Shown piece by piece: positions 42,340 through 53,379 of a stretch of DNA of 64,000 nucleotides (position 1 is its first letter; every line of letters starts with the position of its first letter). Position numbers and translations under genes: made by a program. The notes beneath the pieces were generated by a model. That model did no database searches, was not told the origin of the DNA, and worked only from the letters and a program-made list of their open reading frames with translations. This stretch comes from Parapedobacter soli (lineage in GTDB: Bacteria; Bacteroidota; Bacteroidia; Sphingobacteriales; Sphingobacteriaceae), in contig NZ_JAMXAY010000005.1 of the NCBI RefSeq assembly GCF_025460835.1, positions 62,001 to 126,000 of the forward strand, in the 5' to 3' direction.

Positions 42340-42542
42340 ACTATTATTTCAGCTTCTAATCGTCGCTAAAAGTAAGAAAACTTTAAGTACATGACAAGGC
42401 TCGGTAACGGGCCATGCGACCGTCATGCAACTGCAACGCTGGCACCGGGCTTTGCCTCCCGGCGGTTCTTCCACCGACTCCTTTAGTTTTCATGCGCGGA
42501 GGGGTTCGGGTCATGCCGCACCGCGTCCGGGATATACCCAAC

Positions 42543-42752
42543 TGGTTTCATGTCGCACCGAAATGGGTTCAGGTTACACCGGCATGGTTTCATCTCGCAT
42601 CCACATGGGCTGATGTCGCACCCACATGGGTTCAGGTTACACCGGCATGGTTTCATCTCGCACCCACATGGGCTCATGTCGCATCCGCATGGGTTCATGT
42701 CGCATCCGCACGGGTTCAGGTTAAGCGGACATGGACCCAGGTTAAGCCGGAC
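42543..42752. repeat. 21-bp minisatellite, ten units
   Basis: Ten head-to-tail 21-bp units run from 42543 to 42752. In the plus frame they encode heptads of the form W-x-(Q/H)-V/L-(T/A)-P/S-x; in the minus frame they encode Cys-rich heptads (NPCGCDM-like). Units 2-4 (42564-42626) and 5-7 (42627-42689) repeat almost exactly, giving a 63-bp higher-order period. A plus-strand frame of 134 codons (42414-42818) contains the array but has no recognised domain, and both strands are open, so coding status is doubtful. GC-rich sequence that looks like decayed units continues toward 43170. Confidence 0.8.
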
Positions 42753-43330
42753 ACAGTTCGGCCAGACATGCACTTAAACCGGCTACGTTCCATAAGGGTT
42801 CGGATGGGCTTCACCTGACCTCCTTTTGGTTCATCCCTGATCCGGCCGGGCGCACAAACAAACCGGCGGCATTCCGCCCCATATCGGATCTGTTCCGCGT
42901 TGACCCATGGCTGTTCCAACTTAATCCAAAATAACCTAATCGTAATCCAGCCCGGTGTAACCTAGTCCCGAGATGACCTCTCACCGACCCAAGACGACGT
43001 CACCGCAATCCCCCCGACGTACAGCCGAATCCGGCTACGCTCCGCATGAACCGCTTTCAGTTCCACATGGATCGTTGTCCATTCGAGCCGAACCTGGTCC
43101 GGCACCAACCGGGTTCGGGTAGCAGAGGGATGGAACCGGGTTGCACTGCAATGGGTCTGAGCCGGTGTTTCCCGAACTCGTTATGGTGTTTCCCGAACCT
43201 AATGATCGGGTATGTGAGACCTTTTACTATAGTGTGGGTGATAAAGAAAAGCAATACCGGCAAATCGACAATACCCCATACTTTATTGACCTCAGAATGT
43301 AAAAAATTGCCAGCTTCACTGTTACCATCC
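42753..43330. other. Gene-poor degenerate sequence
   Basis: No intact gene is visible. Up to about 43170 the sequence is rich in GGTTCGG/CCGAACC and TAACCT-like words, reading as worn copies of the minisatellite to the left. At 43183-43302 a 39-codon plus frame ends FYYSVGDKEKQYRQIDNTPY, which looks like the tail of a lost gene but is not recognised. The stretch behaves as a decayed accessory zone. Confidence 0.4.
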
Positions 43331-43438
43331 TTAAAACTGGAGTTTGGCAGCTTCAACGAGCTGAAATCGGTGTATGGTCAGGCCAGTATAGTTGGTAACA
43401 GTAGGGTGATATTCAACATCAAGGGAAACGAGTTCCGA
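43331..43438 (+). pseudogene. HigB-type toxin fragment
   Basis: Within a longer spurious plus-strand frame, the codons at 43331-43438 encode LKLEFGSFNELKSVYG followed by QASIVGNSRVIFNIKGNEFR. This is the central core of Bacteroidota HigB-family mRNA interferases (SFNELK...ASIVGN.RVIFNIKGN.YR). The normal N-terminus and the C-terminal strand with the THAEYDK-type motif are both absent, and no HigA antitoxin follows. About 40 bases later the same frame reads MAKPFAVDTNVLIYQ (43478-43522), which resembles the first strand of a PIN-domain toxin, but that match is short and tentative. The region looks like debris of toxin-antitoxin loci. Confidence 0.6.
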
Positions 43439-43740
43439 GCGGATTCTCCTTTGACCGGGACGAAGCCAATGACTACGATGGCTAAACCTTTTGCAGTGGA
43501 CACCAACGTGCTAATATACCAGCGGGCCACCCCGGTACAAATCGCCCGAATTATTTTAATCAATCGGATTTAGGGCCAAATACCACGATTATCCGTTTCG
43601 AGACCGATGTTCGATTAACATCGGCGAATCTGCTGACCAAGATGGGACCCGACCACGGGCCGGCTTAAACTGGATTCTTTGCGGGGGTGATTTGTGTCAA
43701 TTTGAACATTTTTGCATCATTTTTGTTAAATTACTTGCAA

Positions 43741-43766
43741 TTGTGTCATTTAAGTGTGTATGTTTG
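43741..43766 (+). promoter_or_regulatory. Bacteroidota promoter of the HEPN-containing pair
   Basis: TTG at 43741-43743 and TATGTTTG at 43759-43766 fit the -33 (TTG/TTTG) and -7 (TAnnTTTG) elements with a 15-base gap between them. The start codon at 43814 lies 47 bases downstream. This is one of the clearest promoters in the accessory region. Confidence 0.55.
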
Positions 43767-43813
43767 CGACATCTCATGTATAACATTTTGCCATTGTTCA
43801 TTGAGAATATCTT

Positions 43814-44350
43814 ATGACCGAAGACAACATTTCACCTACAAGAGGTACTGCTCAATTTAACGATTATCTTGTTAAGTACAAGGATCAAGCGAGGAAGGAA
43901 AAAGTAAATAATTTCTATCATGTTGATGTCGTCGCTGATGCCTATAATCAAGGGTTCAGTGACGGGGAACAGAAAGGTAGAAAAGAATTCATTGACGAAC
44001 TCGTGAAAAGTACGACCGAACGATTTACCCAACAGGCTAATCAGGTGTATATACTAACTAATGTTGCTGTATCTCATCTTCAAAAACATGGATACAAGGT
44101 CAATGCTTTTTTTATAAACATTGCTCATCTAAATCCTAAGGCACTCATTGCTGTTGATGGTGATTTGTTATTGGATGATGCATTTGTTGAGTTGTCTTAT
44201 TCAAAGCTGTTTGAGTTAAAAAAGATTTTCACCAAACTATTTGATTGCACTTTAGATATTGGGTTAATTTCGTACGATAACCTTGACAGGGATGCACTCA
44301 AAGAGGATCGGTTCGATTATTCTGAATTTATCGGTGCTATTAATGAGTAG
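43814..44350 (+). CDS. Unknown protein encoded upstream of a HEPN-like gene
   Basis: This 178-residue soluble protein has no signal peptide or membrane span. The N-terminal half is polar and helical (YNQGFSDGEQKGRKEFIDELVKSTTERF). The C-terminal half alternates strands and helices (VNAFFINIAHLNPKALIAVDGDLLLDDAFVELSYSKL, then TLDIGLISYDNLDRD) and ends KEDRFDYSEFI. I recognise no family. The strand-rich acidic C-terminal half could be a nucleotidyltransferase-like fold, but that is a guess based on its HEPN partner. It has its own promoter and overlaps the next gene by 8 bp, so the two are translated as a unit. Codon use is AT-richer than in the flanking core genes, suggesting transfer. Confidence 0.6.
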   Translation: MTEDNISPTRGTAQFNDYLVKYKDQARKEKVNNFYHVDVVADAYNQGFSDGEQKGRKEFIDELVKSTTERFTQQANQVYILTNVAVSHLQKHGYKVNAFFINIAHLNPKALIAVDGDLLLDDAFVELSYSKLFELKKIFTKLFDCTLDIGLISYDNLDRDALKEDRFDYSEFIGAINE

Positions 44351-44738
44351 GAAGCGAGAACATGGTGAAAGGAATTTCGAGCTTTCTGAACTTCTTCATG
44401 AGGGAAAGAAATATTACGACTGGGTGGTTACTACTTGTTTTTATGCTGCTATTCATTTTGTAGAAGACGTTTTATTACCATGTGAGATTAATGGTAGTAG
44501 CTGCAAGACAATCTCCGATGTCAAATCAGCGTACAAAATGCAAGGTCGACATTCTGCGAGGGAAAGACTTGTATGTGAAAAAATGGATTTGCAGACTGCA
44601 GTCAAATATAAGTGGCTTGATGATAAATCTAGGTATTCAAGATATACCACCTATAAGGTTACCCCAACTGAAGCCGATAAGGCCAGGGAATACACTAGAC
44701 AGATCCAAAACAGATGCTACGACGTAAACCAAACTTAA
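44343..44738 (+). CDS. HEPN-like small protein
   Basis: The 131-residue all-helical protein starts at the ATG at 44343, inside the end of the preceding gene (ATGAGTAG overlap). ELLHEGKKYYDWVVTTCFYAAIHFVEDVLLP, GRHSARERLV and KYKWLDDKSRYSRYTTYKV follow the pattern of HEPN proteins with a YDW...YAAxH helix, a H-x3-R element and a terminal SRxxRY element. The classical RNase motif R-x4-6-H is not seen, so nuclease activity cannot be assumed. Gene pairs of this type are often toxin-antitoxin or antiphage modules; the partner here is unknown. A terminator follows 26 bp downstream. Confidence 0.6.
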   Translation: MSRKREHGERNFELSELLHEGKKYYDWVVTTCFYAAIHFVEDVLLPCEINGSSCKTISDVKSAYKMQGRHSARERLVCEKMDLQTAVKYKWLDDKSRYSRYTTYKVTPTEADKAREYTRQIQNRCYDVNQT

Positions 44739-44760
44739 AATAAGTGGACGGAATTATTAT

Positions 44761-44970
44761 AAAACAAAACCCCATCAACCTAATGACGGGGTTTTGTTCG
44801 TTTTTAAGGATTTTGCGGTTCCACTATAAGTAATATTAAAATTCCAGTTATCCCAAGTCGGTAAACACCCGCTCAATTCGCCCCACAATTCGCTCCAACA
44901 GCACAAAACAAAATAGCAACCAACTGAAAAACAATTGATTGCTTTGTGAAGCAGTCGGGATGACAGGATT
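44761..44970 (+). mobile_element. Right-end remnant of an older, related integrative element
   Basis: This 210-bp stretch parallels the right end of the intact element (52334-52531). The order is a 31-bp identical block containing a terminator (44761-44791 versus 52334-52364), a worn arm site (44879-44898 versus 52440-52459, 15 of 20 bases equal), a shared CAACTGAAAA tract, and the 17-bp tRNA-end core (44954-44970 versus 52515-52531). The gap from arm site to core is 55 bases in both. It therefore marks the end of a second element, whose last genes would be the HEPN pair. Confidence 0.75.
44764..44805 (+). terminator. Rho-independent terminator after the HEPN-like gene
   Basis: ACAAAACCCC (44764-44773) pairs with GGGGTTTTGT (44788-44797), with TCA/TGA closing further inside, and TTTTT follows at 44801. 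The same hairpin, with a weaker downstream arm, recurs at 52337-52370 after the last gene of the intact element. Confidence 0.8.
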
Positions 44971-45029
44971 GGCTACGTCGCGCTATCCCCGCACTAAAGG
45001 CCGCAGCCATCCTTGAGGTGGGGAGGTCT

Positions 45030-45153
45030 CAACTAAAAAACGCCTGCTCTACGTGCCTGTGACTTTTACTGTTTTTCCACTCGCTCAAACGAGCTTGGCT
45101 CGCTTTAAAAACAGTAAAAGCCCTCCACCTACTTGCGGAGAGCTTTTTAGTTG
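45030..45153. repeat. Nested inverted repeat near the left attachment site
   Basis: The outer arms are CAACTAAAAA (45030-45039) and TTTTTAGTTG (45144-45153). The inner arms, perfect over 14 bp, are CTTTTACTGTTTTT (45063-45076) and AAAAACAGTAAAAG (45107-45120); between them CTCGCTCAAACGAG can fold again. The whole 124-bp unit is noncoding and ends exactly at the 13-bp core copy at 45154. It could be a structured RNA, a recombination substrate or a small non-autonomous insertion. Confidence 0.6.
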
Positions 45154-45166
45154 GTCGGGATGACAG
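45154..45166 (+). repeat. Third, partial copy of the tRNA-end core
   Basis: GTCGGGATGACAG repeats the first 13 bases of the attachment core exactly 200 bp to the right of the copy at 44954. A further TGAACC seven bases on also fits the tRNA T-arm. It may be the true left end of the intact element, leaving 44971-45153 as a separate insert. Confidence 0.6.
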
Positions 45167-45282
45167 TTCTTGAACCTTTTATTTTCATAGTCGCTAACAT
45201 TAACCTAAAATAGGCCAATACACCTTTTAAACGCATATTTTGTTAACACGTGTAAACCAATGTTAATAAAAACATCACATTT

Positions 45283-45304
45283 ACAGCCCCACAAATAGCC
45301 CCAC
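45283..45304 (+). repeat. Candidate integrase arm site, left
   Basis: A 22-bp sequence made of two AGCCCCAC words 12 bp apart. An identical 22-mer lies at 52438-52459 near the right end. Paired 8-bp words near both ends of a tyrosine-integrase element are what an N-terminal arm-binding domain would contact. The function is inferred. Confidence 0.6.
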
Positions 45305-45319
45305 AAAATTTATAATGTG

Positions 45320-45327
45320 TATATTTG
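45320..45327 (+). promoter_or_regulatory. Candidate -7 element of the integrase gene
   Basis: TATATTTG fits TAnnTTTG and ends 23 bases before the integrase ATG at 45351. It starts 15 bp after the arm site, so integrase bound at the arm could repress its own promoter. Confidence 0.5.
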
Positions 45328-45350
45328 CTATACGTTTTAAAATTCGACTT

Positions 45351-46712
45351 ATGGCATTGAAAACAACTTTCGAGTTGCGCCGGGATACGGCCAACAAAAA
45401 GGGAGAACACCCGGTTACCCTGATTGTATGGGTTGCAGGGAACCGCCGTAAGCTATCCACCGGGATTACTCTGCTGCCGGAGCAATGGGATAGCGAAAAC
45501 CAACAAGCCGTTTACATCAACCGCAAAGAGGCTAAAAGGCTATTGCCCAACATGAACCCGGACACATTGCCGTACAATGACGACATAAACCGCATCAATA
45601 AGGAATTGCGTTCAATTGCCGATGAAGTATCGGACATTGCCACGAAGTTTGAGATTGACCGTATCGCTTATACCGTTGAGGATGTTATCAGCGAATTTAA
45701 AACACGACGGAAACCCCAAGCCCAAAAGGTTGACCCTAAACACTACCTTGTCGACTTCATCGATCAATATGTTAATGACGTAAGAGCCACGCGCAACGAG
45801 GGTACGGTCAAAGTCTACATAACGACACGTAACCATATTGATGACTATGAAAAGCACAAGCGGCAAAGGATAACGATGGAAAGCGCGGGATACGGTTTTT
45901 TGCAGGCGTTCTACAATTATCTGATTGAGGAAAAAGGACAGATCAACGTTACCGCAGCAAAACAGATAACAACCGTCAAAACGTTTCTTTCCTTCGCCCG
46001 GAAACATGGCCACACGATAAACCAGACTTACCACGACTTCACCGTCAAGCGTGAAACGCTGGAAGTCATTGCACTGACCGAAAATGAGTTTCTGACACTG
46101 TACAATCTTGATTTAACCGGGGATGGTAAGGTATTGATACAGTCCGAACCGAAAGCCCTTTACATTTCACTAAACGCATTGGCTAAGGTTAGGGACGTGT
46201 TTTGTTTTTCATGCGTCACCGGGTTGCGGTATTCAGACCTTGCGCAATTGCGCCGTGAACACATCAAGAACGGCTACATACGGTTGACCGTCACTAAGAC
46301 CAAAGAACCCATTGAAATACCGTTGACGGCTTACGCAGCCGAAATACTGGCTAAGTACCCAAACCGGATAAAGATATTGCCTGTAATCAGTAGCCAAAAA
46401 TTCAATGCCTATCTGAAAGCCTTATGCAGGTATGCCGGGATAAATGAGGAAATTGAGATAGTACGCTACAAGGGTGCAAAACGCTATGCGGTAGTTTATC
46501 CCAAGTATGAATTGATAAGCGCCCACACCGGGCGCAAGACGTTCGCAACCCTATCACTCGAAAAGGGGTTGAACGCAGAGGAGGTAATGAGCATCACCGG
46601 GCATAAAAGCTATGCGAGCTTCAAAAGGTACGTGAAGGTCACACAAGAACGCAAAAAAGCGGTAATGGTTAAGGCGTGGGGTGCGCCGGAAACGATGAAA
46701 AAAGTAGACTAA
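45351..46712 (+). CDS. Tyrosine recombinase / integrase
   Basis: The protein is 453 residues from the ATG at 45351; an earlier in-frame start adds 12 unconserved residues and overlaps the promoter. The N-terminal arm-binding-like domain (about residues 1-90) contains FELRRDTANKKGEHPVTL and GNRRKLSTGITLLPEQWD. The core-binding SAM-like domain is at about 120-230. The catalytic domain (about 250-445) has the Arg in TGLRYSDL (about R293), a Lys in TKTKEPIEIPL, HTGRKTFATL (about H392 and R395), GHKSYASFKRY and the Tyr nucleophile (about Y427). All catalytic residues are present. It should carry out integration and excision at the tRNA-Pro core. Confidence 0.95.
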   Translation: MALKTTFELRRDTANKKGEHPVTLIVWVAGNRRKLSTGITLLPEQWDSENQQAVYINRKEAKRLLPNMNPDTLPYNDDINRINKELRSIADEVSDIATKFEIDRIAYTVEDVISEFKTRRKPQAQKVDPKHYLVDFIDQYVNDVRATRNEGTVKVYITTRNHIDDYEKHKRQRITMESAGYGFLQAFYNYLIEEKGQINVTAAKQITTVKTFLSFARKHGHTINQTYHDFTVKRETLEVIALTENEFLTLYNLDLTGDGKVLIQSEPKALYISLNALAKVRDVFCFSCVTGLRYSDLAQLRREHIKNGYIRLTVTKTKEPIEIPLTAYAAEILAKYPNRIKILPVISSQKFNAYLKALCRYAGINEEIEIVRYKGAKRYAVVYPKYELISAHTGRKTFATLSLEKGLNAEEVMSITGHKSYASFKRYVKVTQERKKAVMVKAWGAPETMKKVD

Positions 46713-46722
46713 AATAAACCTT

Positions 46723-46950
46723 ATGATGAAAGACAACAACGAACTGGACAGGTTAAAGAATGAACTATTTGCACGGCTGGAGGAACTCGATGACATGAAA
46801 ACAAGGTTGATTCAAAGGAATGATCAGCTTATCAATGCTAATAAAAAGATTGAGAATTTAAGAAAAGTGATAATGAACCTTACGGAGGGCAAACGAGGGT
46901 GTGTGGGTACTGACTTTCTAAACCTTAGAATGAAACATAATTTGAATTGA
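46723..46950 (+). CDS. Small coiled-coil protein of unknown function
   Basis: The 75-residue, highly charged protein contains a heptad-like helix (about residues 5-50, LDRLKNELFARLEELDDMKTR and INANKKIENLRKVI) and a short basic tail. I recognise no family. It lies 11 bp after the integrase gene and just before the next unknown gene, so it is probably co-transcribed with them. It could be a small partner or regulator of its neighbour. Confidence 0.55.
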   Translation: MMKDNNELDRLKNELFARLEELDDMKTRLIQRNDQLINANKKIENLRKVIMNLTEGKRGCVGTDFLNLRMKHNLN

Positions 46951-46955
46951 TTGAG

Positions 46956-47798
46956 ATGGGAAAGAAACTACTTACAGACGATTACAATGAGATTGTAAAG
47001 GGCGCGTTTAAGATTGATGAAAGCGATTTTCACAACTATTACCTGAATATCGTAAACGAGCATTACGAAAGCAATAACGATATTGCGGAAAAACTGATTG
47101 AATTTGTCGAAAAATGGGCAGACGGTTTTAGGGGTTACGTGATAGACCACGACAATGCGATTCTATCCTATGATAGGTTCAAAGCATGGAACGCGGGAGG
47201 TTTATTTTTTCCATTACCCAACAACCTAAGTCAACAACTGGGGATAATTCGACAGGTAAATAAACCATTCTTTGACGGTCAAATAGAGCAAATAGAGCGC
47301 ATAAAAACATTAATTGAGTTGAGGGAACTCCAAAAGAAACTTGAAAGCCTTGCACCTAAAATCGTTGTTAATGCGACAAACGAGTTATGTCCTTATAATG
47401 GGGAGCTTGACTTTGAAAAAATTAATGAGCGGAAACGGATACTGGATTTGGTGACAATGAAATTTGACGAAGGTAAACGAAAGCCTAAAAACAATGACAA
47501 AGTGCCAAACGGTGCGCAATGGGCGGTGATATTTCACTACGCACACAAAAGCGGCGGTTTGCCTGACGCTACCAATGATGACGATAGAATAAAAGCTTTC
47601 ATAGATGATCACGAAATCAGTCAAACGTTTAAGTATCTACGTAAGGAATACTACGATGCAAAGAAAAAAATTGATGACGATTGCAGTTTTTCAATAGCGA
47701 AATTGGAAGCCGTCATTCATTACTTGAAAAGCATGTATCCAAACGGCGCAACGCTTGCGGAAAATGATATGGCCCACATAAAAAGTATGCAAGAATAG
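46956..47798 (+). CDS. Unknown element-borne protein, mostly helical
   Basis: From the ATG at 46956 this is 280 residues with no membrane span; a TTG three codons earlier is possible. The N-terminal two thirds are helical and charged. The C-terminal part (about residues 185-275: PNGAQWAVIFHYAHKSGGLPDATNDDDRIKAFID..., FKYLRKEYYDAKKK) resembles a domain often seen in proteins next to Bacteroidota integrases, recalled from memory. Its position between integrase and excisionase suggests either element regulation or cargo such as a defence protein. No catalytic motif is evident. Confidence 0.55.
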   Translation: MGKKLLTDDYNEIVKGAFKIDESDFHNYYLNIVNEHYESNNDIAEKLIEFVEKWADGFRGYVIDHDNAILSYDRFKAWNAGGLFFPLPNNLSQQLGIIRQVNKPFFDGQIEQIERIKTLIELRELQKKLESLAPKIVVNATNELCPYNGELDFEKINERKRILDLVTMKFDEGKRKPKNNDKVPNGAQWAVIFHYAHKSGGLPDATNDDDRIKAFIDDHEISQTFKYLRKEYYDAKKKIDDDCSFSIAKLEAVIHYLKSMYPNGATLAENDMAHIKSMQE

Positions 47799-47876
47799 TC
47801 GCCCTTTACCGAAGCCGAGAAAAAAAATAAAATTTTTCTTTCTGATATTCAATCATTTGAAACTATTTTCTTGCCA

Positions 47877-47900
47877 GTAACCCGTTAGTTACCGGGTTAC
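47877..47900. promoter_or_regulatory. Inverted repeat upstream of the excisionase-primase operon
   Basis: GTAACCCG (47877-47884) and CGGGTTAC (47893-47900) form perfect 8-bp arms around TTAGTTAC, which itself repeats part of the arm. It lies 45 bp before the ATG of the excisionase-like gene in a 146-bp gap that is otherwise A+T-rich. It could be an operator or a binding site for replication or excision proteins. Confidence 0.55.
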
Positions 47901-47944
47901 CCTTTACTTGTTTTGACCCATTGTTAATTCAAAATGTAAAAACA

Positions 47945-48223
47945 ATGGAACAAGTATTTTTTAATGTACCCTTAAGCAAACTGGAACCCGTGTTTAAGGG
48001 ATGGGTGCGTGATTGCCTAAATGAACGTACCGTGGAGGAACAAACCACACCAGAAATAATAGACGGTGACGAACTAATCAAGAAACTTGGGATTACCCGG
48101 CAAACATTGTTACGTTGGCGAAAGCAAAACCGCATCCCTTACGTACAGGCCGGGAGCGTCATCCGCTATGATTTAAACAAGGTTATTAAAGCCTTAGAAA
48201 ACAAGAAAGGGGGTGCCAGATGA
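47945..48223 (+). CDS. Excisionase-like helix-turn-helix protein
   Basis: The 92-residue protein carries a MerR/excisionase-type helix-turn-helix (HTH_17 style) at about residues 40-90: IIDGDELIKKLGITRQTLLRWRKQNRIPYVQAGSVIRYDLNKVI. In related elements such proteins act as excisionase or transcriptional activator. The start at 47945 is preferred over an in-frame codon 24 bases earlier. It overlaps the next gene by 4 bp (ATGA), the first of a chain of overlapping genes leading to the primase. Confidence 0.8.
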   Translation: MEQVFFNVPLSKLEPVFKGWVRDCLNERTVEEQTTPEIIDGDELIKKLGITRQTLLRWRKQNRIPYVQAGSVIRYDLNKVIKALENKKGGAR

Positions 48224-48507
48224 CAACCCCTAACAATAACTTTCAAGGACAGGGCAAAGATAGCAATCACAGCGTGCAAAAGCGAATTTTCGCAGCCTAT
48301 TTGCGCCGGAAAACAGCCACCTGCACAATGGTTGCAGAGGATACCGGGATACGGCAGAAATGCCTGACCAGATACAAACGCGAGATGCAGCGCATGGGCT
48401 TGCTGGAAGTGGTTTTCACAGCTCCATGTAAGTATACCGGGCGCGTAGCTCAATACCTCACCACCAATCCGGCACTTATCCAGTCACTGAAAGGAGGTAA
48501 GCGATGA
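48220..48507 (+). CDS. Small winged-helix-like protein
   Basis: The 95-residue basic protein contains SVQKRIFAAYLRRKTATCTMVAEDTGIRQKCLTRYKREMQRMGLLEVV (about residues 18-64), which has the spacing of a winged helix-turn-helix with a following wing. Proteins like it commonly sit between excisionase and primase genes in Bacteroidota elements. It overlaps its neighbours on both sides by 4 bp. Control of replication or copy state is a reasonable guess. Confidence 0.65.
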   Translation: MTTPNNNFQGQGKDSNHSVQKRIFAAYLRRKTATCTMVAEDTGIRQKCLTRYKREMQRMGLLEVVFTAPCKYTGRVAQYLTTNPALIQSLKGGKR

Positions 48508-48695
48508 GGTCACATAAAAAATGGGCGCACCGACATACGGGCGACATGACCCAGCTTATGCGCTACCTGAAAAGGCTCCCTATGTTACCCAACATCGGCG
48601 AGCCGGGTATCAACCGCCTTGCCAAACAATGGGACACCGCACGGGATAAGGTTTATGGTTTAATCACAAAAGTTTTGAGCGATGGAAGCTATTAA
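48504..48695 (+). CDS. Very small basic protein
   Basis: This 63-residue protein is rich in Arg, Lys and His (KKWAHRHTGDMTQLMRYLKRL). The second half (GINRLAKQWDTARDKVYGLI) could form a helix-turn-helix. It overlaps the preceding gene by 4 bp and the primase gene by 14 bp, so its expression is tied to the replication operon. No family is recognised. Confidence 0.55.
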   Translation: MRSHKKWAHRHTGDMTQLMRYLKRLPMLPNIGEPGINRLAKQWDTARDKVYGLITKVLSDGSY

Positions 48696-50238
48696 GATAA
48701 ACCCGGCATTTGATGACCTTATCAACCCGGAAACAATCATCAACCACATGGAGCAACTTAAAAGCATTAGCCCATCAATGCCCCATGCTGAAATATTGCA
48801 TCAACTGATAGAACAGATTGAACCGCTGGATTTTGAAGTATTGGCGTTTCCACAGGCCAAACAATTAAGGGAACAGCTGGAAAGGGCAACGCACGGAAGC
48901 GATGAAGCGAAGGACATTCAAAAGCAACTGGACGGCCTGAAACTGAACCTTAAACATTATTTGGTTTTGTCCGTTGAAAACGCGCTAATGTTAGCCGAAA
49001 AAAACCGTTGGGGCTTGTGCAAAAACCACGATTTTATTTACCTCTACAATGGAACCTATTGGGCCGACATTGACAAAGAGACATTCCAGAAGTTTTTGGG
49101 TGAAGCAGCCGAAAAAATGGGCGTAACCAAGTTTTCAGCAAGGTTTTACCAATTTCGGGAACAGCTTTTCAAACAATTCCTTGCAACCGCTTATTTGCCC
49201 ACACCGGAAGGCAACAAGGATAAGGTACTGATTAACCTACTCAACGGAACATTTGAAATAAGCCCGCAGGGAACGAAGCTAAGGCCGTTCGACCGCAACG
49301 ACTTCATTACATACCAATTACCTTTTGAATACGACCCGACAGCCAAAGCGCCTTTGTTTGAAGCATACCTAAACCGGGTATTGCCTGACAAAGAACGTCA
49401 ACGGGTATTGGCCGAGTACTTAGGTTTTGTTTTCATCAAGCACGGCAGTAACGCATTAAAAGAGGAAAAAGCCCTTATCCTGTACGGTACGGGCGCAAAC
49501 GGTAAAAGCGTATTCTTTGAAGTTGTCAACGCCTTGTTGGGTACGGATAACATTAGCAGCTATTCATTACAGAGCCTGACCAATGATAACGGGTATTTCC
49601 GGGCAAAGCTGGCTAACAAGTTGGTCAATTACGCAAGTGAGATTAACGGCAATTTGGAAGCGTCCATTTTCAAACAATTGGTATCTGGTGAACCCGTTGA
49701 AGCCCGCTTACCTTATGGCCAGCCTTTCATCTTGAAGCAGTACGCCAAACTGATTTTCAATTGTAATGAATTGCCCAAAGACGTTGAACATACAAACGCC
49801 TATTTCAGGAGGTTTTTAATCATCCCGTTTGATGTTACTATTCCCGAACACGAACAGGATAAAAGCCTACATACAAAGATCATTGAAAACGAGCTATCAG
49901 GCGTATTCAATTGGGTATTGCAAGGACTTAACAGGTTGCTGGAGCAAAAGAAGTTTTCAGATTGTGAAGCAGCCCAACAAGCCGTTGAACAATACAAAAT
50001 TGAAAGTAACAGCGTACAGATGTTTTTGAATGAAAACGAATACAAAGGCAGTTTAACCAATTACAAGTTAATAAAAGACCTGTACCCGGAATATAGAGCC
50101 TTTTGTATTGATGACGGAATGACACCTTTCAAAAAGACCAATTTCATAAAACAGTTACGGGCTTTGAGTTTGGTTGTAGATAGGGTTTCACAAAACCAAT
50201 TGGCGGTTTTTATTGAAGCACCGGGACTAAGTTTTTAA
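48682..50238 (+). CDS. P4-type DNA primase-helicase (D5/SF3 helicase)
   Basis: The 518-residue protein has a D5-type N-terminal region (about residues 90-250: LINLLNGTFEI, DFITYQLPFEYDP, YLGFVFIKHGSN). The superfamily 3 helicase domain follows (about 255-420). Walker A is GTGANGKS (about 269-276); further motifs include LANKLVNYASEING, KQLVSGEPVEARLPYG and LIFNCNELPKDVEHTNAYFRRFLIIPFD. The C-terminal region (about 440-510) resembles the D5 DNA-binding winged helix. It would unwind and start replication at the element's origin after excision, as the alpha protein does for satellite phage P4. It lacks an obvious toprim domain, which may be supplied by the next gene. Confidence 0.9.
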   Translation: MEAIKINPAFDDLINPETIINHMEQLKSISPSMPHAEILHQLIEQIEPLDFEVLAFPQAKQLREQLERATHGSDEAKDIQKQLDGLKLNLKHYLVLSVENALMLAEKNRWGLCKNHDFIYLYNGTYWADIDKETFQKFLGEAAEKMGVTKFSARFYQFREQLFKQFLATAYLPTPEGNKDKVLINLLNGTFEISPQGTKLRPFDRNDFITYQLPFEYDPTAKAPLFEAYLNRVLPDKERQRVLAEYLGFVFIKHGSNALKEEKALILYGTGANGKSVFFEVVNALLGTDNISSYSLQSLTNDNGYFRAKLANKLVNYASEINGNLEASIFKQLVSGEPVEARLPYGQPFILKQYAKLIFNCNELPKDVEHTNAYFRRFLIIPFDVTIPEHEQDKSLHTKIIENELSGVFNWVLQGLNRLLEQKKFSDCEAAQQAVEQYKIESNSVQMFLNENEYKGSLTNYKLIKDLYPEYRAFCIDDGMTPFKKTNFIKQLRALSLVVDRVSQNQLAVFIEAPGLSF

Positions 50239-50261
50239 CGCAAATAAAAAAGGTTTTTTCA

Positions 50262-51707
50262 ATGAGTAACTTTAATAACTTTAGTAACCAACCCCACCGA
50301 TACAGTTTAGAAAAAGGCAGTAAAAAGCACCATTGCCCCGACTGTAACAAAAAGACGTTTGTACTGTATATTGATACAGAAACAGGCGACCACTTACCCG
50401 AACAGTACGGACGTTGCGACCGTGAAAGTAAATGTTCATACCACCTCAACCCTTATTCAGACGGTTACGCAAAAGCAATTTGGGAACAGGAACAGGGCAA
50501 CCGTTCGGAATTACCGAACAAATGGAAACCCCAACAAAAAAAGAAAGCACCACGGCCCGAACCTCAACCCGTTTACTTTGACTTTGATACATTCAAACAG
50601 ACATTGCAGCCCGAGCGCTATGTAATTAATACGTTCATCCAAAACCTGCTAAGCCGGGTACAATTTCCCTTTGGAGTTGATGAGGTCACAAAGGTTATCG
50701 AGCTGTACAGACTTGGTACGGTGGCCAATGGCTACAGAGCCGGAGCCGTCACCTTTCCGTTTATTGACGTTGGGGGTAACGTTAGGGCCATACAAGTAAA
50801 ACAATTTGACGAACACAACCACACCACAGGTACGGACTTTTTACACTCCATCATCGAGAAACATCACACCCGTAACAACAAGCCGTTGCCCGATTGGCTG
50901 GAAGCATACACAAGGCAGGATAAACGAATTTCCTGTTTATTTGGCGAACACCTTTTAAGCAAGTACCACAGCAACCCCGTTGCATTAGTTGAAGCCCCAA
51001 AAACAGCCGTTTACGGTACATTGTATTTTGGTTTGCCTGAAACACCTGAAAGCCTTATTTGGTTGGCAGTTTACAACAAAAGCAGTTTTTCATTTGACAA
51101 GCTGAAAGTATTACAAGGGCGTTTTGTTTATGTATTTCCCGACCTTTCAAAAGACGGTAACACCTTCAAAGAATGGGAAACCAAAGCCAAAGAATATGAA
51201 AGCCGTTTACCCGGTACACGCTTTATATTTTCGGACTTACTGGAGCAGTTAGCACCTGAACGGGACAAAAGCGAAGGCAACGACCTTGCAGACTATTTAA
51301 TAAAACAGGATTGGCGACTATTCAGGAAACGGAATATTCAGGAACAACCACCACAGCCCGAACCTGAAAAAGTTACTAAAGTTACTAAAGTTACCCCCCA
51401 ACAAAACATTATTTTTTCACACGTTGAACCATTGCCAAAAGTTGAGGTATTCAAAACTGAACGAATTGAACAGCCCCAAAACTGGAGCAATGATATTGCA
51501 GAATTTGAAAACTACTTTGCAAGTATTGAACTACCAACCCAACCCATAAAGCTGAACAGGTGCAGCACAATAACGGATTGTTCCCTATTCATTGAAAGCC
51601 ACTTTGCCACCTTGAAAGCGAACAACAGTAAACGGACATTCTTACCCTACCTCAACCGCCTGCAGGAGCTGAAACGCATTTTAATTTCATCCCCTGTATC
51701 ACGTTAA
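50262..51707 (+). CDS. Zinc-finger/toprim-like replication protein (DUF6371-like)
   Basis: The 481-residue protein has an N-terminal zinc-finger-like region with CPDCNKKTF and CDRESKCSYH (about residues 26-66). A long middle domain (about 95-350) includes VTFPFIDVGGNVRAIQVKQFDE, a VALVEAPKTAVYG strand (toprim-like Glu) and FVYVFPDLSKDGNTFKEWE (Asp-rich strand). I read it as the primase half of the system and as similar to DUF6371 proteins. The C-terminal 130 residues are Pro/Glu/Thr/Val-rich (KVTKVTKVTP repeat) and look disordered. It follows the primase-helicase by 23 bp. Confidence 0.72.
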   Translation: MSNFNNFSNQPHRYSLEKGSKKHHCPDCNKKTFVLYIDTETGDHLPEQYGRCDRESKCSYHLNPYSDGYAKAIWEQEQGNRSELPNKWKPQQKKKAPRPEPQPVYFDFDTFKQTLQPERYVINTFIQNLLSRVQFPFGVDEVTKVIELYRLGTVANGYRAGAVTFPFIDVGGNVRAIQVKQFDEHNHTTGTDFLHSIIEKHHTRNNKPLPDWLEAYTRQDKRISCLFGEHLLSKYHSNPVALVEAPKTAVYGTLYFGLPETPESLIWLAVYNKSSFSFDKLKVLQGRFVYVFPDLSKDGNTFKEWETKAKEYESRLPGTRFIFSDLLEQLAPERDKSEGNDLADYLIKQDWRLFRKRNIQEQPPQPEPEKVTKVTKVTPQQNIIFSHVEPLPKVEVFKTERIEQPQNWSNDIAEFENYFASIELPTQPIKLNRCSTITDCSLFIESHFATLKANNSKRTFLPYLNRLQELKRILISSPVSR

Positions 51708-51734
51708 AACTTCTTAATTATTTAGGTTTGCATT

Positions 51735-52328
51735 ATGGGAAGACCACACACATTGCCGGATTTGTATGACAGCGTTTTAAGGCTTAGGCTTGCGTTGTTG
51801 AAGCGTGACGGCTATTTTAAACCCAATATCCGTAGATCGGGCATTGTCACTTGGCATGACAGGTACGGTGAAAAGCGTGCGAGCATTTCCATTGAAACCA
51901 ATACCCTATCTGACGATGGGCATTATATCGAACTGGATTACAGGTATGGGGGCGATACCCGTAAGTACAGGGTATACATTACCTATCAGCCGTCAAATCT
52001 TGGAAAGGGATTGATACCTTATTTCGTCTGCCCGCAGACAGGGAAGCGATGCCGGATACTTTACAGTATTGGCGGTTATTTCCTGCACCGGGAAGCGTTC
52101 AACCATGCCATGTATGAGTGCCAGACGCAAAGCAAAAGGTACAGGGATTTAGAACGGCTTTATGGCGCACATTTACGACTGGACAGTAATTATGAAAAAC
52201 TTCACAAAAAACATTTTATGAAGTATTATGCCGGGAAGCCGACAAAGCGATACCAAAAAATATTGAGGGAAATACAACGCGGCGAAAGCGTGCCATACCA
52301 AGAAGTGGAGCGGGCGATGATTATGTAA
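51735..52328 (+). CDS. Unknown element-borne protein with possible zinc-binding core
   Basis: The 197-residue basic protein contains VCPQTGKRCRILYSIGGYFLHREAF...YECQTQSKR (about residues 98-140), a Cys-rich strand pair of a kind seen in small proteins of Bacteroidota and proteobacterial mobile elements. The N-terminus (MGRPHTLPDLYDSVLRLRLALLKRDGYFKP) is helical. It is the last gene of the element and is followed by the conserved terminator repeat. The function is unknown; nucleic-acid binding is plausible. Confidence 0.6.
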   Translation: MGRPHTLPDLYDSVLRLRLALLKRDGYFKPNIRRSGIVTWHDRYGEKRASISIETNTLSDDGHYIELDYRYGGDTRKYRVYITYQPSNLGKGLIPYFVCPQTGKRCRILYSIGGYFLHREAFNHAMYECQTQSKRYRDLERLYGAHLRLDSNYEKLHKKHFMKYYAGKPTKRYQKILREIQRGESVPYQEVERAMIM

Positions 52329-52333
52329 GAAGC

Positions 52334-52364
52334 AAAACAAAACCCCATCAACCTAATGACGGGG
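52334..52364 (+). repeat. 31-bp block identical to 44761-44791 (terminator hairpin)
   Basis: All 31 bases match the copy after the HEPN-like gene. It contains the CCCC-TCA/TGA-GGGG hairpin; the downstream T-run is weaker here (CTTCGTACGTTTT). It ends the element's operon and, with the core and arm site, defines a conserved right-end module. Confidence 0.75.
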
Positions 52365-52437
52365 CTTCGTACGTTTTAAAATACCTTGCGGCACTGGAAC
52401 AAAGATAGCACATTTCTTTGACCTGAAAACAGTCAAA

Positions 52438-52459
52438 ACAGCCCCACAAATAGCCCCAC
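52438..52459 (+). repeat. Candidate integrase arm site, right
   Basis: Identical to the 22-mer at 45283-45304. It ends 55 bases before the attachment core at 52515, the same spacing as in the older right end at 44898/44954. Confidence 0.6.
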
Positions 52460-52515
52460 TACCAAAAACAAAAACAGCAAACAACTGAAAACCAATCGAT
52501 TGCTGCTTAATTATG

Positions 52516-52589
52516 TCGGGATGACAGGATTCGAACCTGCGGCCTCTTCGTCCCGAACGAAGCGCGCTACCGGGCTGCGCTACATCCCG
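52516..52589 (-). tRNA. tRNA-Pro (anticodon CGG)
   Basis: On the minus strand the 74-base sequence folds as a cloverleaf: acceptor CGGGATG/CATCCCG with discriminator A, D-arm with AGCGCAGCCCGGTAGCGCG, anticodon stem CTTCG/CGAAG around TTCGGGA (anticodon CGG, reading CCG), and T-arm with GGTTCGAATCC. CCA is not encoded. Its 3' end is the insertion site of the integrative element to the left and remains intact. Confidence 0.96.
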
Positions 52590-52755: not shown

Positions 52756-53379
52756 ATGAAAACGAAACAGGACTACATCGGAGACATCGCGGAAATCCGT
52801 TCGATGATGGAGCGGACCTCTAAGTTTCTGTCGCTCTCCGGGTGGGCGGGGGTAATGGCTGGTATCTATGCAATCGCTGCAGTTTATCTGGCTTACACAG
52901 TCCTTGGTTTTAATCCCGGGGGCATCACTTATGGCACCGCCCCGGCAAATCCGGCGCCAGCCCTCCCTCAGCTTCTCACTTTGGCCATCGGCACGTTGCT
53001 ACTCGCCGTTGGCACCGCAGTTTTCCTATCCCACCGGAAATCGAGCAAACGGGGTGAAAACCTTTGGAATAGCACATCCCGCCGCATGGTCACCACGATG
53101 ATTATTCCGCTAGTTACGGGCGGCGTATCTATCCTGATTTTGCTATCGTACGGATTAGTTGGACTGGCCGCACCTCTTTCCTTGATTTTCTATGGACTCG
53201 CCCTCTATAGCGCCGGCAACTTCACCTATAGCGCGGTTAAGTGGTTAGGGGGTATTGAAATTACACTTGGGCTTATCGGCCTTGGCTTTATTAGTTACGG
53301 ATTAATTTGCTGGACCATCGGCTTCGGTTTGCTGCATATCGTTTATGGCATCTATATCTATTATCGTTTCGAGAAGTGA
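52756..53379 (+). CDS. Integral membrane protein, about six spans
   Basis: The 207-residue protein begins MKTKQDYIGDIAEIRSMMERTSKFLSLSGW, a soluble helix followed by about six hydrophobic spans (for example ILILLSYGLVGLAAPLSLIF and GLGFISYGLICWTIGFGL). No enzyme motif is present. It overlaps the winged-helix regulator by 4 bp (GTGA), and the DUF4153 membrane protein follows, an arrangement I recall as common in Sphingobacteria. The role may be envelope sensing. Confidence 0.75.
   Translation: MKTKQDYIGDIAEIRSMMERTSKFLSLSGWAGVMAGIYAIAAVYLAYTVLGFNPGGITYGTAPANPAPALPQLLTLAIGTLLLAVGTAVFLSHRKSSKRGENLWNSTSRRMVTTMIIPLVTGGVSILILLSYGLVGLAAPLSLIFYGLALYSAGNFTYSAVKWLGGIEITLGLIGLGFISYGLICWTIGFGLLHIVYGIYIYYRFEK

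Follow-up and report, generated by a model that had tools for sequence, protein, structure and literature searches.

How did two right ends of the same type of integrative element come to lie beside a single tRNA gene? The 3' ends of tRNA genes are classic landing sites of phages and genomic islands, and the gene in question is tRNA-Pro(CGG) of Parapedobacter soli. We analysed a window of 64,000 nucleotides (contig NZ_JAMXAY010000005.1, positions 62,001 to 126,000, forward strand; all positions below are those of the window), in which an intact element adjoins this tRNA, and beyond it lie a second right end and a gene pair encoding a HEPN protein. An earlier sequence-only reading had explained the arrangement as a tandem insertion at the tRNA itself. 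We favour, with a probability of about 0.7, two separate insertions: the older one used a spare copy of the attachment core in a structured unit of about 200 bp, and the HEPN pair is its relic cargo.

The repeated right end is the starting point of the argument. Its parts, in both copies, are as follows.

44761–44791, no strand: 31-bp terminator block of the old right end (identity to 52334–52364 and alignment of the right ends).
44880–44898, plus strand: decayed arm repeats of the old right end (alignment of the right ends).
44954–44970, no strand: second attachment core, duplicating the tRNA end on the outer border of the 200-bp unit and directly adjoining the old right end.
52334–52364, no strand: 31-bp terminator block of the intact right end (identity to 44761–44791).
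52441–52459, plus strand: right arm-type repeats of the intact element, GCCCCAC twice.
52515–52531, no strand: right attachment (attR) core of the intact element, the last 17 bp of the tRNA.
52515–52589, minus strand: tRNA-Pro(CGG), the attachment gene, with its 3' end at 52515 (ARAGORN; Rfam tRNA, 67.7 bits).

As previously noted, terminator, arm and core recur in the same order at 44761–44970. The 31-bp block and the 17-bp core are identical in the two copies, and the gap from arm to core is 55 bases in both. The arms are paired, at 44880 and 44892 in the old right end, where the second copy has decayed, and at 52441 and 52453 in the intact element. Pairwise alignment of the old and intact right ends gave 128 identical bases out of 184 (E 2e-25), with about 30% divergence beyond the 31-bp block, and a search of the whole genome found the module at these two places only (E 1.9e-19). 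The 13-bp core GTCGGGATGACAG was seen four times, compared to 0.09 chance matches expected per window (at most one mismatch). The repetition is thereby confirmed as real and far from chance. The proposal that 44761–44953 represents the decayed remains of another right end, left by a second element of this type, holds up.

A third copy of the core had been overlooked. It lies at 45154–45166 (GTCGGGATGACAG), exactly 200 bp to the right of 44954, and runs on into TTCTTGAACCT; its presence changes the interpretation of the locus. We compared 15 related integrases (38–51% identical) and read the sequence upstream of each. In nearly all of them a terminator hairpin comes first, followed by a tRNA-end core that continues into TTGAACCT-like sequence; about 120 bp further on come the two arm repeats and then the integrase gene. 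The order on the left attachment (attL) side of a Sphingobacterium micropteri prophage, whose integrase is 48% identical, is the same. The window matches this order when the core is placed at 45154 and the arms at 45286 and 45298.

45154–45177, no strand: attL core of the intact element, 13 bp equal to the tRNA end and then TTGAACCT-type sequence (15 related integrases and locus L026).
45286–45304, plus strand: left arm-type repeats, GCCCCAC twice.
45351–46712, plus strand: tyrosine integrase (Phage_integrase, Phage_int_SAM_5 and Arm-DNA-bind_5; PF00589, E 1.6e-14), the gene adjoining attL.

Positions 45154–45177 and 52515–52538 are identical at 20 of 24 bases, and the tRNA is intact. Because the attL anatomy of the related integrases fits there, we place the left boundary at 45154 and not at 44954, so that the intact element spans 45154–52514 (7.36 kb).

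What, then, are the 200 bp between the second core and the start of the intact element?

44954–45153, minus strand: structured tRNA-flank unit of about 200 bp, displaced from the tRNA by the intact element (covariance model R1, 154.5 bits, E 5.8e-34).

Comparison of the 3' flanks of tRNA-Pro(CGG) among relatives, which had been suggested as a check, revealed empty sites: in G005 and G066 the unit lies directly behind the tRNA with the 200-bp spacing and no element, and G003 is similar. Since 44954–45153 is found in element-free relatives, the unit belongs to the 3' flank of tRNA-Pro. The model R1, built from 21 copies, detected the unit in 25 of the 80 relatives searched, among them members of other families within the class, and in 6 of 61 genomes of a further sample of the phylum (the own genome counted). 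The RNA genes that bear it are those of tRNA-Ser, tRNA-Leu(GAG), tRNA-Pro, transfer-messenger RNA (tmRNA) and one tRNA-Arg, and among the 49 copies that could be assigned to an RNA gene, 45 begin within −3 to +5 nt of its 3' end. R1 places six copies in the own genome (G000), at 44954–45153 of the window and at C101:139591, C96:9826, C89:80977, C90:89702 and C101:58714.

Compensatory change supports the structure of the unit in 27 of 44 pairs, and the covariation score was 0.382, compared to 0.167 after shuffling and no more than 0.10 after sliding. The tail of the unit copies the 3' end of the adjacent RNA (mean 10.7 of 15 positions, where other classes of gene reach 7.2; P 1e-4 by permutation, n = 36 usable); the match to the acceptor part is bimodal, with at least 7 of 8 in 13 of the 36. 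As the tail repeats the RNA 3' end, the 17-bp core at 44954 needs no element as its explanation. The earlier claim of a tandem insertion at the tRNA with its core at 44954 must therefore be given up, this core being the edge of a unit that is element-free in relatives and the intact element starting at 45154.

No Rfam family was found for the unit, the search returning only the tRNA, tmRNA and weak sub-threshold matches to unrelated families, and a literature search on tRNA-flank repeats yielded nothing relevant. We tentatively propose that 44954–45153 represents an apparently undescribed family of structured repeats at the 3' ends of tRNA-Pro, tRNA-Ser, tRNA-Leu and tmRNA genes of Bacteroidota, in which a distal hairpin would extend a T-arm mimic, regenerate the 3' end of the gene and offer a spare attachment site to elements and their toxin-antitoxin cargo while the tRNA stays untouched. 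Some genomes carry the unit in tandem arrays (G022, contig C95; G014, C1:43320–43990). To the eye, the tmRNA flank that adjoins the HEPN pair at L025, 10955–11147 (G014), resembles a variant of the unit, but R1 does not detect it; the likeness of this flank to the unit at L153 was likewise seen by eye only.

Two other explanations of the unit have to be weighed. The first, which we hold just as tentatively as our own proposal, takes it for a transcribed 3' trailer, a terminator plus a structured RNA serving tRNA processing or expression, whose copy of the tRNA end was met by the old element by accident and which has no role in integration. The conserved structure, with its compensatory changes in the tRNA-sense orientation, and a hairpin resembling an intrinsic terminator right behind the tRNA would fit such a trailer, but the greater part of the unit extends past the likely terminator, and in the own genome no more than about six RNA genes have it. 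According to the second, which we consider unlikely, the unit would be a very small integrative element in its own right, non-autonomous and entering tRNA ends with integrases acting in trans, the far core being its attL scar. Direct repeats of the 3' end of the adjacent RNA do bound the unit, its distribution is patchy, and arrays occur behind tmRNA and tRNA-Ser. However, the outer stem also matches the T-stem of the host gene on its inner side, being co-adapted to each tRNA type, and in most cases the unit starts 0–2 nt from the RNA end.

To the left of the distal core, relatives have a plain terminator-like stretch, whereas the window has a right end with terminator, arms and the correct spacing. 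Two attachment sites 200 bp apart would have been used at this locus, not one. Most likely, the distal core at 44954, where we infer an earlier integration, served as attachment site for an older element with the same type of integrase. In other genomes, elements lie between the unit and the tRNA-end core, namely at the Pro core of G080 (L118), at the Ser core of G080 (L143) and in G111 (L153).

The old right end is preceded by two genes.

43814–44350, plus strand: upstream gene of the HEPN pair, 178 aa, no family.
44343–44738, plus strand: HEPN protein, its start overlapping the end of the upstream gene (ATGAGTAG; PF05168, E 7e-5, above cut-off).

The pair had been regarded as right-end cargo, and it does lie directly inside the old right end. 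The structural model of the HEPN protein has a confidence (pLDDT) of 92, and its best PDB matches are HEPN proteins with a probability of 1.00 and template modelling (TM) scores of 0.62–0.67, at weak E values of 0.03–0.05. For the upstream protein, a single-sequence scan found no relatives and an alignment-based search found two; its weak fold matches to an MNT/HEPN complex and to KH-like proteins were not trusted. PADLOC has no model for the pair, and tblastn searches against phage (HEPN protein) and plasmid sequences (partner) gave no match.

The two genes are kept together in seven other genomes or phage contigs. They were found in 3 other genomes among 301 of the family, with two further clear cases in 295 genomes of the class, and are absent from all eight congeners. 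The pair adjoins the integrase of the S. micropteri prophage, stands just before the phage terminase in an IMG/VR contig, and lies beside tmRNA in G014, near AbiE, HigBA and a PDC-S31 gene in a metagenome-assembled genome of Bacteroidales and near DpnII in G015; in G609 its setting is ordinary chromosomal. Occurrence of the pair at other loci without the right end would count against the sequence-only reading, and in part this is seen: it does turn up in other contexts, as is expected of mobile cargo. From its distribution the pair appears to be just that, rare and mobile. Our best guess is that it acts as a toxin-antitoxin or abortive-infection module. At L219, 10204–14253, a HEPN pair is adjoined by a 1349-aa NTPase-like protein without Pfam or PADLOC family, possibly a defence gene.

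Comparable slots hold other genes. In the congener G007, a Fic gene stands directly before 37 bp of the right-end terminator (92% identical), which is followed by an arm-like repeat (ACCGACAAC twice) and a tRNA-end core, with Abi_alpha and a second integrase close by (Fic locus: L220, 8554–9736, contig C25). In the own genome, a 946-bp insert (L187, 1069–2014; contig C101 of G000) separates tRNA-Ser(GCT) from its unit and is bounded by tRNA-Ser ends, the second one imperfect (13 of 18); it carries an antitoxin-like gene and a PIN toxin (PIN_3, E 2e-16). Because of the Fic gene in the slot of G007 and the PIN pair behind the own tRNA-Ser, the data support the view that the slot holds exchangeable toxin-like cargo that outlives its carrier, much as had been anticipated for defence or addiction genes. 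That tRNA-Pro(CGG) is a hotspot, as also had been suggested, was not borne out: no tyrosine integrase was found in the fetched 3' flank of this tRNA in 10 relatives, with a profile that may miss other types of integrase.

These observations bear on a further alternative, in which partial duplication or conversion from the intact right end gave rise to 44761–44953 and the HEPN pair is a chromosomal neighbour rather than cargo. The 31-bp block is identical while the remainder has diverged, and no other part of an old element was found, as this alternative would have it; yet we judge it improbable, considering the divergence of about 30% outside the block, the preserved geometry from arm to core, the absence of the pair from the congeners and its presence in a phage contig and a prophage elsewhere, and the existence of analogous relics with other toxins. 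Least probable is a tandem insertion of both elements into one tRNA core, with 44954 serving the old element as attR and the intact one as attL: the 17-bp core there does equal the end of the tRNA, with the old right end adjoining at equal spacing, but the 200 bp that follow occur behind tRNA-Pro in element-free relatives, the attL anatomy and arm spacing of the integrase family fit 45154, and the 13-bp core copy at 45154 would be left unexplained.

Several points weigh against two insertions with a HEPN relic. Near the locus, nothing to the left of 43814 could be recognised as a left end, an integrase remnant or a core copy of the old element (core searched with at most three mismatches); none of the strains compared lacks the old element alone, and the right-end DNA module hardly occurs outside this genome. 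The upstream gene of the pair has no Pfam or NCBIfam family, no sequence relative in the PDB and no PDB fold match better than E 0.02, and no recognisable antitoxin fold. The HEPN protein is a putative toxin, and the canonical Rx4-6H motif is absent from it, the invariant residues H7, H70, R73, R100, Y101 and Y104 not forming one. According to a survey, HEPN proteins without Rx4-6H can still be toxic (PMC3710099).

If two insertions did take place, we infer the following order of events. The locus would have started as tRNA-Pro(CGG) directly followed by the unit of about 200 bp, the far edge of which repeats the last 17 bp of the gene, so that two cores stood 200 bp apart. The tyrosine integrases of both elements would recognise the tRNA-Pro(CGG) 3' end. 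The older element would have entered the distal core at 44954 and then decayed to its right end (terminator, arm remnant and core) and the two-gene HEPN cargo; with its left end and integrase lost, it could no longer excise. Later, the intact 7.36-kb element would have entered the tRNA core, a crossover by its integrase within the core of 13–17 bp restoring the tRNA at 52515 and leaving a core copy at 45154. The HEPN pair would be a toxin-antitoxin or abortive-infection module that is exchanged by mobile elements and persists in the chromosome after the loss of its carrier.

The remaining genes of the intact element, all on the plus strand, are these.

46956–47798, plus strand: element gene, no family.
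47945–48223, plus strand: HTH_17 or excisionase-like DNA-binding protein.
48220–48507, plus strand: small element gene, no family.
48504–48695, plus strand: small element gene, no family.
48682–50238, plus strand: P4-type phage/plasmid primase-helicase (TIGR01613, D5_N, DUF5906; E 1.8e-53).
50262–51707, plus strand: protein with Zn-ribbon, DUF6371 and DUF6965, probably primase-like.
51735–52328, plus strand: last element gene, no family, present in 8 other genomes of the 301.

The primase-helicase scored 181 bits against TIGR01613 (cut-off 108.7), and no relaxase family was found among the element genes in Pfam and NCBIfam. The element can probably excise and replicate with its P4-type primase-helicase. 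Two relatives of the last gene with a D5 helicase (L080 and L082) were rejected as guides to the right end, having different integrases and no tRNA nearby. To the right of the tRNA, the gene at 52756 is conserved in congeners, but without an adjoining tRNA-Pro. To the left of the HEPN pair lies a further remnant.

43046–43573, plus strand: degraded HigB-type toxin fragment (PF09907, E 1.3e-8, residues 98–131).

By eye, a PIN-like N-terminal motif is joined to this HigB fragment; L139 has an intact HigBA near a HEPN pair. Further left, at 42494–42745, lies an array of 21-bp direct repeats with nine registered copies.

If a conserved structured flank carries a second landing sequence, tandem as well as relic insertions next to a single tRNA would be accounted for, and the idea of spare or decoy attachment sites could be put to the test. 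What outlasts the carrier in these relics is small toxin-antitoxin-like genes (HEPN, PIN, Fic).

With P4-like satellites, phage-inducible chromosomal islands (PICI) and other tRNA-targeted elements, the intact element shares an arm-binding tyrosine integrase, an excisionase-like helix-turn-helix protein, a P4-type primase-helicase and insertion at a tRNA 3' end that restores the gene; it differs in that no packaging or helper-interaction gene was recognised and in its host, a member of the Bacteroidota. For the unit, repeats are known downstream of Escherichia coli tyrT (rtT RNA), in units of about 180 bp behind the tRNA gene, each with a copy of the tRNA 3' end. These are probably its closest known parallel, compared here only via the absent Rfam match. 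The likeness lies in a repeat behind a tRNA gene that copies its 3' end; in contrast, our unit occurs behind many tRNA types and tmRNA, in several families of another phylum. The Salmonella genomic island SGI1 also has a secondary attachment site besides its primary attB and forms tandem arrays at one locus (PMC2297512), whereas the second site here belongs to a conserved unit with a copy of the tRNA end, at a distance of 200 bp. The HEPN pair resembles HEPN-MNT modules (PMC3710099) in its two overlapping genes with HEPN second and in its mobile, defence-associated contexts, but its partner is not a recognisable nucleotidyltransferase and the Rx4-6H RNase motif is absent. Tandem tRNA elements with defence-like cargo are thus of a known kind; new are the correction to two attachment sites and the structured unit as the source of the second.

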